64,000 nucleotides of DNA from Thermoproteota archaeon (GCA_003649185.1 QMRB01000002.1:1-64000), one strand, 5' to 3'. Counted from the stretch's first letter, positions 51,720 through 57,420 are shown. Numbers and translations: made by a program. Notes: generated by a model from the letters alone, not told the origin.

Positions 51720-52688
51720 TTACTGAAGTTTAAAATTAAAATTTGAGATTAAAGATACAATTTTCAATCCCTCTTTTATTACATTTTCAGTTCCACTTTC
51801 ATCCATTAATTCTCCATGAGTTTGAGATCTATATTCCTGTATTTTATATGCGGATTTTCTTAATGGATGAAGAGCTCCCGCCACTGCTGGGATAATGCCT
51901 CCTATGATACCTATAAGGGGATGACTTGAGATTTGGCCTATCATCCAGCCGATGGCCATCCCTGAAGCCAATATACTTAAAGACATACCTATAGCCATTC
52001 CTCTGTGAAATGTGGACATAGGATATTGTGCTGAGAAGACTTCGCCGCTTACAGCGTCCACAACACCTCTAAGCTTAAACCCGGCATATACATATTGTAA
52101 CTCCCAGATTGGATAATGGGTTAAACCCTCACATTTACAGTTAAGCGTTACCTCTGCTTTTGGACATGCAAGCTCCACCTCTCCACTAATCCTTCTATAT
52201 ACTCTGGCCTTTGCATACTTCTCTAAATGCTCAATCTTCAATTGGGGAGAATAGAATTTACCGTATTTTAGCATTTGCGGCTTAAAGTAAACTCTACCTT
52301 TAATGGGAAAACGGTATTCGGCTGGTATAGGTATTGGAAGAATTCTCATCGACGGTATAGCGACATATTCAGCCTCCAAGATCTCCGTTCCTTCACATTC
52401 AGCCTTCCCCTCCACATAGAAGATGTATATTGGAAGATAATGTAAATGTCTACTTATAAGTGAAACTTTCTCTTTAAAATCGCTTGGTATGCCGAACTGC
52501 CTTATAAGTATAGCCTTCAATGTTTCATAAGCTTCATTAGAATCATAGATCATTGGATAAAAATAATGTTTAGACTCCAATTTACCCGTGGAGATCTCAA
52601 AGGTTGTTCCACAATATGGACATGTAGCTATATTAACGTCTTCCGGAACCTCGAATTCTCCGCCGCAATGGCTACATTTAAGCTTCAT
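51720..52688 (-). CDS. Zinc-ribbon membrane protein, YdjG-like (paralogue 2)
   Basis: A 322-aa protein. N-terminal zinc ribbon: CSHC (residues 5-8) and CPYC (about 23-26). A middle domain with LPIYIFYVEGKAEC (about 87-100) and HYPIWELQYVYAGFKLRGVV (about 191-210, the YdjG-like pattern of an aromatic strand pair around a membrane-surface domain), then two or three hydrophobic segments (about 232-275). C-terminal 50 residues are polar, with RKSAYKIQEYRSQTHGEL. It sits head to tail after a paralogue with the same layout at 52689. The bacterial YdjG of the PspA-associated ydj operon has the same domain order; similarity is inferred from pattern. Confidence 0.72.
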   Translation of the reverse strand: MKLKCSHCGGEFEVPEDVNIATCPYCGTTFEISTGKLESKHYFYPMIYDSNEAYETLKAILIRQFGIPSDFKEKVSLISRHLHYLPIYIFYVEGKAECEGTEILEAEYVAIPSMRILPIPIPAEYRFPIKGRVYFKPQMLKYGKFYSPQLKIEHLEKYAKARVYRRISGEVELACPKAEVTLNCKCEGLTHYPIWELQYVYAGFKLRGVVDAVSGEVFSAQYPMSTFHRGMAIGMSLSILASGMAIGWMIGQISSHPLIGIIGGIIPAVAGALHPLRKSAYKIQEYRSQTHGELMDESGTENVIKEGLKIVSLISNFNFKLQ

Positions 52689-53648
52689 TTAAACACCTCT
52701 TTCAATTCGCACATCGCTAACCAATCTGTCTCCAAAATAGAAGCTTATCCCTCCACCAATAATCAATGAGAGTAGAAGTGTGGAGATATGATGGGAGAAG
52801 ACCATTCCAAGCGAGGATATTAAACAGCCTGCAACTGAACCTATGAAGTAGAGTATTCTATGATATGGCATTATAGGTTCCTGTGCTGTTAAAAGATGCC
52901 GATCCCATCCTGCATAGGCAGCTCTATACTGAGCTCCCCTATAGCTATAAATAACATACCAGTATGGAAGTAATGTTAAAGGTGAACGTTCAAGAATTTT
53001 GGCTCTGCAAATAAATTTTGTGAGCTCAGAAACTTTAGATTTAGCTTTCTCCCTCATAATGTTCATGGCTTTATCTCTCGCTAGAATATCAGCCTCGTCA
53101 ACCGGAATCTCCGTTTTCAATATGGGAAGTTTAACTTTACTCCAATCTATCTGCATAATATCCACCGTTTCAGGATTAGCGTATCTATAATAATCAGTTA
53201 ACTCTTTAATGGAGAAGTCTTCTGCACCTCTCCTGGCAAGAATGGAAATCTTAAGGGTTGAGCATATTCTATCTCTAACCATTTTTCTCCGAGTTTCTAA
53301 AATGGTTCTCTTACCCCTTTTCACAGCAACAGTTTCAACCCTCCAACCTTCATAGTAAGCTTCAGCTCTAACAGTGTAAAAATAGAAGGGAATATAGGCT
53401 CCGTCAACTGTAACTATTTTTATTTTATCTTTAATTTTTCTTAAATCAAAGTCTTCGGATATTCTCTTTTTAAATGAAAATTTAACTTCATCTCTGCTTA
53501 GAGAGGGAATTATGAGAATCTGTTCTTCCACATGAGATATCCAATTGGGATATCCGCAGTAACCGCAGATTGCAACTATGGTTTCAGGTGTAATTTTCAG
53601 GGGAGCCCCGCAACGTTTACATCTATACTCTTTGATGGCAGTTACCAT
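52689..53648 (-). CDS. Zinc-ribbon membrane protein, YdjG-like (paralogue 1)
   Basis: About 319 aa. Zinc ribbon CKRC (about residues 10-13) and CGYC (about 29-32). The middle domain carries YIPFYFYTVRAEAYYEGW (about 83-100) and, later, LPYWYVIYSYRGAQYRAAYA (about 224-243), matching the LPVWLL...Y.G..Y pattern of YdjG-type proteins. Two hydrophobic segments follow (about 263-305: ILYFIGSVAGCLISSLGMVF and TLLLSLIIGGGISFYFGDRL). Start at the ATG (53648); a GTG at 53657 is possible. It abuts the SPFH gene and is followed without a gap by its paralogue. Confidence 0.72.
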   Translation of the reverse strand: MVTAIKEYRCKRCGAPLKITPETIVAICGYCGYPNWISHVEEQILIIPSLSRDEVKFSFKKRISEDFDLRKIKDKIKIVTVDGAYIPFYFYTVRAEAYYEGWRVETVAVKRGKRTILETRRKMVRDRICSTLKISILARRGAEDFSIKELTDYYRYANPETVDIMQIDWSKVKLPILKTEIPVDEADILARDKAMNIMREKAKSKVSELTKFICRAKILERSPLTLLPYWYVIYSYRGAQYRAAYAGWDRHLLTAQEPIMPYHRILYFIGSVAGCLISSLGMVFSHHISTLLLSLIIGGGISFYFGDRLVSDVRIERGV

Positions 53649-53658
53649 TAGAAACACT

Positions 53659-54696
53659 CTATTTCAATTCTTCACCGCATGTAGGGCAATATTTGGCTTC
53701 ACTTGGAGCAATATGCCCTTTAGAACACCATTTAACTCTTCTGCCGCAATATGGGCAGAAATTGGCTCCAAGAGGAACAGGTTTACCACAATATGGACAA
53801 TTAGATTGCTTAGGAGTGGATGTGGCTATTGGAGCACCACTTGGCTGGCTGGCTGCTGTTTGAGAAGATGGCTGAGGAGGAGGCTGCATAACAGGCGGTA
53901 TGAGAACCATTCCGGCACCTATACCGGCTCCTGGACTTTTACCAAGCTCTTTAGCCATCTCCTTGGCAGTTTCCATTTGTAGAACATATCCACTTTGGAC
54001 GCCGCCACGCATAATCCAGAAGAGCCTATCTCTCCATTCGCCTTCCGTATCAACACCTTCAAAAACCACTTTCTCCAAGTTTATTCCAAGTTCTGAAAAA
54101 TCCTTTCTGAGGAGAATTGTCAGCTTCTCTGTAACTTCACTCTGCTTTACATAAACATCCTGTATACTTGTTTTACTTAAATAGGCCATGATCTTCTCGT
54201 TGAAGTATCCTCTAAGATAATCATTTAGCTCTTCTGTTGTAAAGGCATTCTGTGGACCTACAACTTTATTTACAAGTAGTGAGGGATCCTCCACTCTGAA
54301 GTAGAAGCTTCCGTGGAATAGGAGGGGAGCCAGCTCCACAGTCTGCGTTCTTCCACCAAACTTTCCCTGAAACCTTCTAAGCGAAACAAAAATGATTATC
54401 GATCTGAAAATGCTCGTACCATATAAACCTTCAACTAAACCACTTAGAAATGGAACATTCTGAGTATCCAATACATGTCTTCCAGCACCTAGAATACCAT
54501 AGATCTTTCCATCTCTATAGAAAAGTGCCGTTTCAAACTCCTTTACTATTACTACACTTCCCCATGGAATAACATCATCTGGAAAACGCCAGACTATTTC
54601 ATCTTCACCTGGATTAACCCATTCTATGACCTTTGGTTTCAATCCTCCAATACCCCTTGCAACTTTGCCTAAACCTTTACCTAAAATGTCGATCAT
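53659..54696 (-). CDS. SPFH-domain protein with C-terminal double zinc ribbon (YdjI-like)
   Basis: A 345-aa protein. Residues about 20-230 are an SPFH (stomatin/prohibitin/flotillin) domain of the so-called virion-core-protein type: EDEIVWRFPDDVIPWGSVVI (about 31-50), then VKEFETALFYRDGK and YYFRVEDPSLLV-like FYFRVEDPSLLVNKVVGPQN. A Pro/Gln/Ser-rich linker (about 265-295) leads to two zinc ribbons: CPYC, CPYC and then CSKG, CPTC (about 299-342). It has no membrane helix; in Bacillus the homologous YdjI is recruited to the membrane by YdjG and YdjH. GAGGTGA lies before the ATG. It follows the 54718 gene by 21 nt. Confidence 0.88.
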   Translation of the reverse strand: MIDILGKGLGKVARGIGGLKPKVIEWVNPGEDEIVWRFPDDVIPWGSVVIVKEFETALFYRDGKIYGILGAGRHVLDTQNVPFLSGLVEGLYGTSIFRSIIIFVSLRRFQGKFGGRTQTVELAPLLFHGSFYFRVEDPSLLVNKVVGPQNAFTTEELNDYLRGYFNEKIMAYLSKTSIQDVYVKQSEVTEKLTILLRKDFSELGINLEKVVFEGVDTEGEWRDRLFWIMRGGVQSGYVLQMETAKEMAKELGKSPGAGIGAGMVLIPPVMQPPPQPSSQTAASQPSGAPIATSTPKQSNCPYCGKPVPLGANFCPYCGRRVKWCSKGHIAPSEAKYCPTCGEELK

Positions 54697-54717
54697 AAAG
54701 CGTTCACCTCAAAGTTA

Positions 54718-55212
54718 TTAAACGCCTTTAAATACTTTAATTCTCCTATCGATTACATCATTAATCTTAGAGAGAACTTCATTTATCCTTAAAATGACTT
54801 CATTTTTCACCGTTGAAACTTTAGCTGATCTTAAAACTTTAACGGATAATTCTTTGATTTCTTCAGCCAATTCTACAAGTTTCCCATCTATATCTCTAAC
54901 TTTTTTCAAATCTGGGAGTTCTATGTGAATTCTGCTGTAATGTGGAGCATATCCTGCCTCAGAGTATCTAAGCTTGTCTATGGTTAACCTGACATTGGAG
55001 ATTAAATCTTCAATTCTCCTTGCAAGTTTAAAATCGAAGTCTAAAATTGATGCTGCTGCTTCCTCCAAGTTTCTTCTAGCATCTGACAATAAGTCCACTA
55101 CGTAACTTCTAATTAAACGGTCATCCTCTCTTATAAGTTCTCTCTTCTTATAACCGCTAAATCCAGGAATCATGGTTTCAAGCTTCTCGATCCAGGTAAG
55201 CTTCTTAGACAT
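54718..55212 (-). CDS. Helical protein paired with the SPFH gene, unknown
   Basis: A 164-aa, almost entirely helical protein. The first part is IEKLETMIPGFSGYKKRELI (about residues 6-25), followed by REDDRLIRSYVVDLLSDARR (about 26-45). The middle GYAPHYSRIHIELPDLKKV (about 86-104) breaks the helices, and the end is leucine-rich. Proteins with this GYxGYK/REDDR pattern are often encoded next to SPFH genes in bacteria and archaea. I see no catalytic motif. It is first in the cluster and could take the place of PspA in the bacterial system. GGTGAT before the ATG at 55212 sets the start. Confidence 0.72.
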   Translation of the reverse strand: MSKKLTWIEKLETMIPGFSGYKKRELIREDDRLIRSYVVDLLSDARRNLEEAAASILDFDFKLARRIEDLISNVRLTIDKLRYSEAGYAPHYSRIHIELPDLKKVRDIDGKLVELAEEIKELSVKVLRSAKVSTVKNEVILRINEVLSKINDVIDRRIKVFKGV

Positions 55213-55360
55213 ATAATCACCGATAAATTCAATTAAAACTTTCATGTAAACTATTTAAGAGTTGAGGGACATATTCCACACATATTTTGATTATATAAAA
55301 TTTCAAATAAAAAGTTGATATTAGGAATTAATGTGAGATTAATTGAAATTAAAATGTAAT

Positions 55361-55591
55361 TTAGCCTCCACTTATAATGGGCATTAAGACTATTCTATCA
55401 GAATCTACGATTAGGGAGTCAAGGGTTGAAGGTTGACCGTCCACTAGAATTATTATCCTCCCCTCCAGATCCAATGGTAATTTAATTATATCTCTAATTT
55501 TAACTGGTTTATCAACTCTGATCTTCATGCTTCTTCCACCAATATATTCTGCTAAGTAGCCTAAAGCTCTTATAAAGGCCATCCATTTCAC
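55361..55591 (-). CDS. MoaD/ThiS-like ubiquitin-fold protein
   Basis: A 76-aa beta-grasp protein that ends in the GG (VLMPIISGG) needed for activation as a thiocarboxylate sulfur carrier. Its layout [12 protein letters not shown], then [20 protein letters not shown] and a final DRIVLMP strand is that of MoaD/ThiS/SAMP. The GTG start overlaps the TGA of the oxidoreductase gene (GTGA), so the two are translated together. That placement points to supplying sulfur for the tungsten- or molybdenum-pterin cofactor of that enzyme. A later ATG at 55582 is possible. Confidence 0.85.
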
Positions 55592-57420
55592 TCTTCAAGC
55601 TTAACATATTTCTCTAATATGGGAATGGTAAAGTCTAATCCAAACTTTTTAAGAGTTGATTTTCTAGGTACTCCTCTTTCGTCCCAGCCTCTCCTCTCAT
55701 AATATTTAGAGAGCAGTTCATTCCAAAGCTTTTTATCCAGTTTTTTTCCTGCAAGAGGCCCTTTCGTTAAAGGTTCCTCAAACCATCTGGTAGGCGGAGT
55801 ATCCATTTCTCTATTCCAATCTCCTTTATACTCTCTTATCCAGAAAGCTCTTATCAGAGAATATATTCTATCTCCAACTTCAAAGAAATCTTTCAATGAA
55901 AGGTTCACTCCGGTGGCAGCTTTAAAGAATTTCACATACCAGTCGAGATTGAAGCCCAGTTCTATCCATGGAAGTCTACAGGTTACTAGAGATTCAAACA
56001 TTCCTCCTCGTATTCTTTGAAACTCCAATACTTTGTCAACTTTAATATCATCATATTTAAATCGGCCGATGCTGATCTCCCATGAAATAACCCATGCATC
56101 CTTATGATGAGCACCTATAGGGGATGTTCCGAACGCTAATGCCATTCCTGGAGCTGCATGGCAATCATAAGCAGATATTTCAAGCCCTTTAACATGCATA
56201 GCCCATCTTTCAGATCCTTCGCCAAGTTTTCTAGAAATTTTTCTCACACCTTCAGCCAGCAGGTTTCCAATTCCACGTCTATAGGAAATGTCATATAAAA
56301 GTTCCTTGGCTTTCTCGAAGTCTCCCCACTCGATCTTCTCATTCACTAAACCTTTCTCTGAAGCCTCCATGATAAAGCCTATGACATTTCCAGAAGATAT
56401 TGTATCTATTCCCATTTCATCACAAATTCTATTTAAAACTCCCACTTTCCTTATATCGCCAACACCTATATTACTGCTCAACATAGTTACATTCTCATAG
56501 TCAAGCTCGGAGCTTCTTCCCTCAGCATCCTCAATGACATTTCCACATTGCATGTTGCAGTATGGGCAGCCTCTCCTCTTAATCTTCACCTTTTCCATGG
56601 CGTAGCCATTAACATTTTCAGCGAAATCGAAAACTCCCTCTCTAAAATTATATGTTGGTAGTGTACTGTTCTCCTGGCACCATTCAACGGTCATCATAGT
56701 TCCCTGCCTAATCCAGAAGTCATATCCACTGGCCTTTCTAATGGATTCATAGCCCATTCTTCCAAGCTTCATTAACTCATCCATATCTGCAACTGGAATT
56801 TCACCTGTACCTTTAAAGACTACGGCTTTAACCTTCTTGGAACCCATAACGGCACCCATTCCAGGTCTTCCACCAGATCTACCCTCCTGTGATATTATTG
56901 TGGCAAATTTAACGAGGTTTTCTCCTCCAGGACCTATAACAAGTATGCCGCAGTCTGATCCAACATTCTCTCTTAGTTTTCTTTCAGCTTCAAATGTGCT
57001 TAGACCCCATAGATCTGAAGCATTTCTAATTTCAACTTTATCATCCTCCACATATATGTAGACGGGTTTTTCGGAGACACCTTCCAAGATTAATGCATCA
57101 TAGCCGGCTCTCCTCATATGAACCGAAGCCATTGTTCCAACATTTCCATCACCATATCCTCCAGTTAGAGGACTTTTAGAAGCCACCACCATTTTTCCAC
57201 TGCTGGCAATGGGTAATCCGGTTAATGGGCCTGCAGCAAAAATCAACTTATTCTGAGGTGAGAAAGGTTCAACTCCTATTGGAAGTTCATCCCATAAAAG
57301 TTTAACAGCGAAGCCTCTTCCCCCAATGAAATTTAAAGCTAAATTTTCATCATAATTCTCCACCTTGCATCTTCTCTCACTTACATCTACTCTTAGAAAT
57401 TTTCCAGTCCAACCCTTCAT
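55588..57420 (-). CDS. Tungsten-type aldehyde ferredoxin oxidoreductase
   Basis: A 610-aa member of the AOR family. It oxidises aldehydes to acids with ferredoxin, at a tungstopterin site next to a 4Fe-4S cluster. N-terminal [16 protein letters not shown] (about residues 31-46), the pterin segment [18 protein letters not shown] (about 97-114), [20 protein letters not shown] (about 181-200), the cluster CPYCNMQC (Cys285, 288, 292) and a last Cys in [10 protein letters not shown]. It lacks the longer domains of glyceraldehyde-3-phosphate oxidoreductase. The substrate is not known. MoaD-like gene overlaps the stop. The truncated tungstate transporter at 21.7 kb may have once supplied its metal. 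Confidence 0.95.

Follow-up and report, generated by a model that had tools for sequence, protein, structure and literature searches.

A four-gene cluster of Thermoproteota with relatives of Bacillus YdjG and YdjI, probably encoding a membrane scaffold

In a 64,000-nucleotide (nt) stretch of DNA from a Thermoproteota archaeon (GCA_003649185.1, QMRB01000002.1:1-64000; the whole stretch is called the window here), four adjacent open reading frames (ORFs) on the minus strand at 51720-55212 encode a helical protein, an SPFH protein and two zinc-ribbon membrane proteins, ZnR-A and ZnR-B. Judged by profile comparison, this module is homologous to Bacillus ydjG and ydjI in two components and different in the remainder. 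The four genes probably form an undescribed membrane scaffold. The original prediction for this DNA had claimed a four-gene cluster on one strand with small gaps, and this is what we find: the intergenic gaps are 21, 1 and 0 nt if the longest starts are assumed.

Relationship to YdjG and YdjI

The SPFH protein (53659..54696, minus strand; 345 amino acids, aa) has the features of a YdjI-type protein: a PF13421 domain (Band_7_1, E 9.6e-23 in Pfam, ahead of PF01145 with E 5.1e-14), a C-terminal zinc ribbon and no transmembrane (TM) helix. Two stretches of its C-terminus, at residues about 299-343 (53668..53802, minus strand), match Zn_Ribbon_1 (PF13240) in Pfam. An SPFH profile built from archaeal sequences only recovered the SPFH partners of the bacterial ribbon proteins described below with E 6e-25 to 3e-44. 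The original prediction had an SPFH protein ending in two zinc ribbons, in a cluster that resembles YdjG/YdjI; the PF13421 domain together with these profile matches bears this out.

Both zinc-ribbon proteins are 322 aa long and encoded on the minus strand, ZnR-A, the first of the pair, at 52689..53657 and ZnR-B, the second, at 51720..52688. Each carries a single CxxC...CxxC ribbon at the N-terminus, then a beta region containing a pair of aromatic-proline motifs (PFY/PIY and PYW/PIW) and, by hydropathy, two hydrophobic helices at the C-terminus. The AlphaFold2 model of ZnR-A (mean predicted local distance difference test, pLDDT, 93) places the hairpin helices at 264-287 and 291-313, so that model and hydropathy give a hairpin with two TM helices at residues 264-313 (52719..52868, minus strand). 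The hairpin of ZnR-B, with two TM segments by hydropathy and boundaries taken from the sequence, lies at residues about 230-275 (51864..52001, minus strand). Hence the predicted combination of a ribbon, a paired aromatic beta motif and a C-terminal membrane hairpin holds for both proteins.

For comparison with bacteria, a B. subtilis YdjG query was used that was verified at its two ends, but not in its middle, by the primers given in PMC8581546 (the forward primer encodes MIISYKCPNC, the reverse MGGGF-stop). This query matched plasmid-borne ribbon proteins from Enterococcus gallinarum, Vibrio, Comamonas, Paracoccus and Tsukamurella, and an SPFH gene adjoins in all five loci compared. In E. gallinarum the SPFH gene is followed by those for the ribbon protein and a TPM protein, i. 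e. the families of ydjI, ydjG and ydjH. A ribbon-protein profile built from archaeal sequences only recovered the five bacterial SPFH neighbours and YdjG with E 1.7e-25 to 2.4e-42 (1.4e-32 for YdjG, in the sequence verified at its ends), and no other match below E 0.6 was obtained among 422 sequences, which included 50 shuffled copies of YdjG. When the ribbons were left out, the archaeal and bacterial beta domains still aligned in hhalign (99.2%, E 2.6e-19; reversed control E 0.07, best of 20 column-shuffled controls E 0.008). This rules out that the likeness is due to the zinc ribbons alone. Taken together, the profile matches, the ribbon-free alignment and the SPFH matches indicate that the links to the YdjG and YdjI families are real. 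The ribbon proteins do not belong to a family unrelated to YdjG, and the claimed relationship stands. The C-terminal membrane segment of the YdjG family is present in ZnR-A and ZnR-B, but as a two-helix hairpin. Since each has one ribbon whereas the bacterial set has two, we call them YdjG-like, i. e. a homologous subfamily, and not YdjG. A tblastn search of bacterial plasmids with ZnR-A gave no match.

Within one genome ZnR-A and ZnR-B share only about 20% identity. Among 89 ribbon proteins placed in one tree, the second-in-pair copies, ZnR-B included, make up a clade of 32 with a support of 0.948; the first-in-pair copies sit elsewhere, with ZnR-A, in a part of the tree that has some poorly supported deep branches. 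By their placement in separate parts of this tree, the two are ancient paralogues. That they are so dissimilar and still adjacent in constant order suggests that they work jointly. The proposal of two YdjG-like partners is thus backed by homology and by the tree of pairs.

The helical protein

The helical protein (54718..55212, minus strand; 164 aa from the conserved start) belongs to a family with the hallmark motifs PG-x-[RS]-GYK-x-[KR]-E and GY, for which no Pfam family could be assigned. Its AlphaFold2 model (pLDDT 80.8) has four main helices of 39, 23, 30 and 30 residues. At E 0.01, Pfam matched none of 67 family members to PspA_IM30 or Snf7, and the 50 best PDB fold matches included neither PspA nor ESCRT-III; the top one was chlamydial IncA (E 0.036). 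Comparison of the helical family with archaeal Snf7-like proteins in hhalign, each family separately, reached E 0.06, which is not significant, and a profile search of the PDB gave a non-significant SNF7 match (E 0.34). An identification as PspA or ESCRT-III is therefore supported neither by sequence profiles nor by a long-hairpin fold. On these comparisons the helical protein is not recognisably related to PspA. The original prediction of a non-PspA helical protein agrees with the Pfam results, the PDB fold matches and a cluster without PspA. In bacterial plasmids tblastn with a helical-family protein found no match.

PspA itself (PF04012, over the curated cut-off) was found neither in the cluster nor in its own genome, which is 76% complete, nor in 40 relatives. 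A YdjH-type partner, part of the Bacillus scheme from which the original prediction started, did not turn up either: TPM/YdjH (PF04536) was found in 0 of these 41 genomes, and the same search detected it in 8 of 14 control genomes, B. subtilis included. Pfam did not detect Snf7 in genomes of the window's taxonomic order, a negative to be taken with caution, since the model is weak in archaea and stays below cut-off in the Sulfolobus control. An anti-phage system was considered and dismissed, as PADLOC gave no meaningful match (best P0001 against a CARF_HEPN model, E 0.0036). Phage origin was rejected as well, PHROGs matches being weak and to families of unknown function.

Conservation and variants of the module

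The four genes recur, identically arranged and with 47-81% identity (76-81% for the SPFH protein), in each of the four well-covered genomes of the window's taxonomic order. The search with the helical family in named genomes, of which the best 80 of 119 matches were kept, gave loci in Bathyarchaeota, Caldarchaeum, Calditenuaceae, Terraquivivens, Geocrenenecus, Nezhaarchaeota, Thermofilum and others; the listed matches are titled archaea. In 77 of these 80 loci an SPFH gene comes directly after the helical gene and on its strand, in 70 of them within 60 nt; the median gap is 1 nt. At least one YdjG-like gene lies within 4 kb in 56 of the 80, and the A and B pair occurs in 16. Conservation within the order and partial sets in most of the 80 loci from other lineages rule out chance adjacency. 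The four-gene order is thus kept in relatives, as the predicted module would lead one to expect. To judge from its distribution, the module is old and widespread.

In a survey of 398 Thermoproteota genomes drawn evenly, with a threshold of E 1e-8 for YdjG-like matches, the helical family was present in 205 and a YdjG-like protein in 145; families f18, f27 and f30, with complete genomes, are among those that carry the helical family. Both families occurred in 137 of the 145 genomes with a YdjG-like protein, and the ribbon protein stood alone in 8 (Fisher odds ratio 47, p 1e-43, with kinship ignored).

Some observations speak against the scaffold reading given below. A YdjG-like match was missing at this threshold from 68 of the 205 helical-positive genomes, which suggests a more general helical-SPFH unit to which the ribbon proteins are accessory. 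In Bathyarchaeia there is a single YdjG-like protein of about 250 aa with no membrane segment by hydropathy, hence an anchor role would not be universal. Finally, no solved relative of ZnR-A was found by fold among PDB structures. In Bathyarchaeia a small protein with four TM segments (4-TM) beside the helical-SPFH pair could be the anchor. Such proteins of about 115 aa fall into two families, cluster c4 in 31 and cluster c5 in 29 of 85 loci compared. Examples adjoining the helical or SPFH gene, each without a confident Pfam family, are L079:6623-6997, L107:8563-8886 and L130:8511-8849. The order of the window has no 4-TM gene within the cluster; an unlinked, distant 4-TM relative lies elsewhere in the window's own genome (G000:C21:9613-9930, E 2.5e-9). 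Some complete genomes have a helical, an SPFH and a small multi-TM gene with no YdjG-like genes nearby. The variable YdjG-like and 4-TM genes around a constant pair suggest that the helical and SPFH proteins are the core and that the anchors vary. The description as an archaeal version of the Bacillus module understates the range, since the helical-SPFH core is accompanied by 0 to 3 YdjG-like genes and often by a small 4-TM protein.

Further genes recur at these loci. In three of them, titled Calditenuaceae isolates (L106, L112, L115), the helical gene is separated from the SPFH gene by a third YdjG-like gene, a longer one of 415-452 aa. A protein with an arrestin-N-like domain and a zinc ribbon stands beside the helical-SPFH pair in several lineages (PF00339, E 9.7e-7), and in genomes of family f6 a comparable domain precedes the YdjG-like ribbon protein within one polypeptide (PF00339, E 0.011, below cut-off). 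Examples are L064:10960-11625 and L041:7723-9183, and cluster c8 occurs in 11 loci; this domain fusion is a hint that the arrestin-like domain may belong to the module. In the Bathyarchaeia loci L118-L158 two more genes recur. The one immediately upstream of the module encodes a protein of 460-475 aa whose start is of the nucleotide-binding GAGPAG type (32 loci), the one downstream a protein of 530-560 aa (26 loci).

Gene starts and surroundings

The ORF of the helical protein opens at 55245 (175 aa). Translation most likely begins at ATG 55212, which is also the end coordinate of the original prediction: the alignment with relatives sets in at about this methionine, and a GGTGA ribosome-binding motif lies before it. 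For ZnR-A the conserved ATG at 53648 is the most likely start. A TATA-box-like TTTTATATAA upstream of the first gene (55291..55300, minus strand), recognised from its letters only, is a possible operon promoter. Downstream the cluster is followed by an amidohydrolase gene (Pfam) on the opposite strand. Upstream, at 55361-57420, lie a MoaD/ThiS-like gene and an aldehyde:ferredoxin oxidoreductase gene, which are also found together just upstream of the module in the relative G004.

Possible function

The reading that we favour, with some confidence, is that the ZnR pair would tether a soluble SPFH assembly to the membrane, with the helical protein as the dedicated partner of the SPFH protein. 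According to this model, ZnR-A and ZnR-B would sit in the membrane via their C-terminal hairpins, with the zinc ribbon and the aromatic beta domain in the cytoplasm, and would recruit the SPFH protein, which itself has no membrane segment. The SPFH protein would bind the helical protein encoded just upstream, which would fill the place of PspA in the Bacillus scheme, and the assembly may then organise or stabilise a membrane patch. The recruiting order is transferred from B. subtilis YdjG/YdjH, YdjI and PspA: as reported in PMC8581546, YdjI lacks a membrane segment and depends on YdjG and YdjH for its membrane localisation, and PspA foci require YdjI. From this scheme we infer that the archaeal proteins bind each other and have a role in membrane integrity; a role in membrane stress is suggested by analogy only. 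A bolder version, which we regard as doubtful, is that the helical and SPFH proteins with the ancient A/B anchors constitute a self-standing archaeal system for membrane repair or remodelling that would replace PspA, and perhaps ESCRT-III, with a new family of helical effectors in lineages where PspA is not recognisable.

The module could instead be a quality-control or sorting platform for membrane proteins, in which the SPFH and helical proteins make up a cage or lid comparable to those of HflK/C and stomatins and the ribbon proteins present or bind substrates, with no stress response involved. Other SPFH subfamilies pair with proteases or NfeD (PMC2636767), and PMC11188069 describes an archaeal SPFH-zinc-ribbon protein beside ESCRT loci ('Meth_adaptin') that its authors link to YdjI. 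The arrestin-like domain, fused in f6 or adjoining the pair, would also suit cargo or membrane binding. However, no catalytic family was found in the four proteins, nor did the conserved neighbourhood show a recognisable protease, NfeD or ESCRT-III gene, with Pfam applied to a minority of the neighbours; we consider such a platform unlikely, if worth keeping in mind. The ribbon proteins might also be regulators, tethered to the membrane, with nucleic acid or the transcription machinery as their binding partners, which would make the cluster a signaling unit. In PMC9239133 the YdjG ribbon is termed TF_Zn_Ribbon and a regulatory role is suggested, and we saw weak matches to ribbons of TFIIB and RNA polymerase. 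Yet such ribbons are generic, these matches stay below curated cut-offs, the beta domain is conserved as well as the ribbon, and the bacterial data (PMC8581546) make YdjG and YdjH anchors. A regulatory function thus seems very unlikely to us.

It is highly improbable, too, that the helical protein is a strongly diverged relative of PspA or ESCRT-III and the cluster a Bacillus operon with an unrecognisable PspA. The protein is all-helical, its gene adjoins the SPFH gene as pspA does in the ydj operon, and the non-significant SNF7 match mentioned above points the same way. Against this stand the lack of any PspA_IM30 or Snf7 match in the family, the fold and hhalign comparisons, and the four helices of the model, which do not form a single long hairpin.

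Comparison with known systems

The archaeal cluster shares with B. subtilis pspA-ydjGHI a homologous YdjG-like ribbon and beta-domain membrane protein and a homologous PF13421 SPFH protein that carries its zinc ribbon at the C-terminus and lacks a membrane segment, the two being encoded by neighbouring genes. It differs in having two YdjG-like paralogues instead of one, and in lacking TPM/YdjH and PspA, with an unrelated helical family instead. Bacterial YdjG proteins have two ribbons and one C-terminal membrane helix, the archaeal ones a single ribbon and a hairpin. The plasmid-borne SPFH and YdjG-like pairs of the five bacteria are likewise adjacent and homologous, but have a single YdjG-like gene, a TPM neighbour in Enterococcus and no helical-family gene. 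The 'Meth_adaptin' loci (PMC11188069) also place an archaeal SPFH-zinc-ribbon protein in a conserved membrane-related gene set; they contain ESCRT and adaptin-appendage genes, whereas no ESCRT gene was found beside our module. The PspA-Band-7 and PspA-TPM neighbourhoods (PMC11237479) resemble it in the idea of SPFH and ribbon proteins that organise a membrane-dynamics protein, but the archaeal module has no PspA. Within the accessible parts of the open-access literature, subscription papers being outside the scope, we found no description of the helical-SPFH-YdjG set.

The partnership of YdjG and YdjI, known experimentally from Bacillus, would thus be broader than the Psp response, for the homologous pair occurs throughout Thermoproteota without PspA or YdjH. 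Its companion in archaea is an unnamed helical family present in half of the sampled Thermoproteota genomes. The two paralogues have kept separate identities across lineages, which would make this a two-anchor system. For archaea, in which few envelope-stress proteins are known, the module offers concrete genes with which the question of membrane upkeep may be approached.

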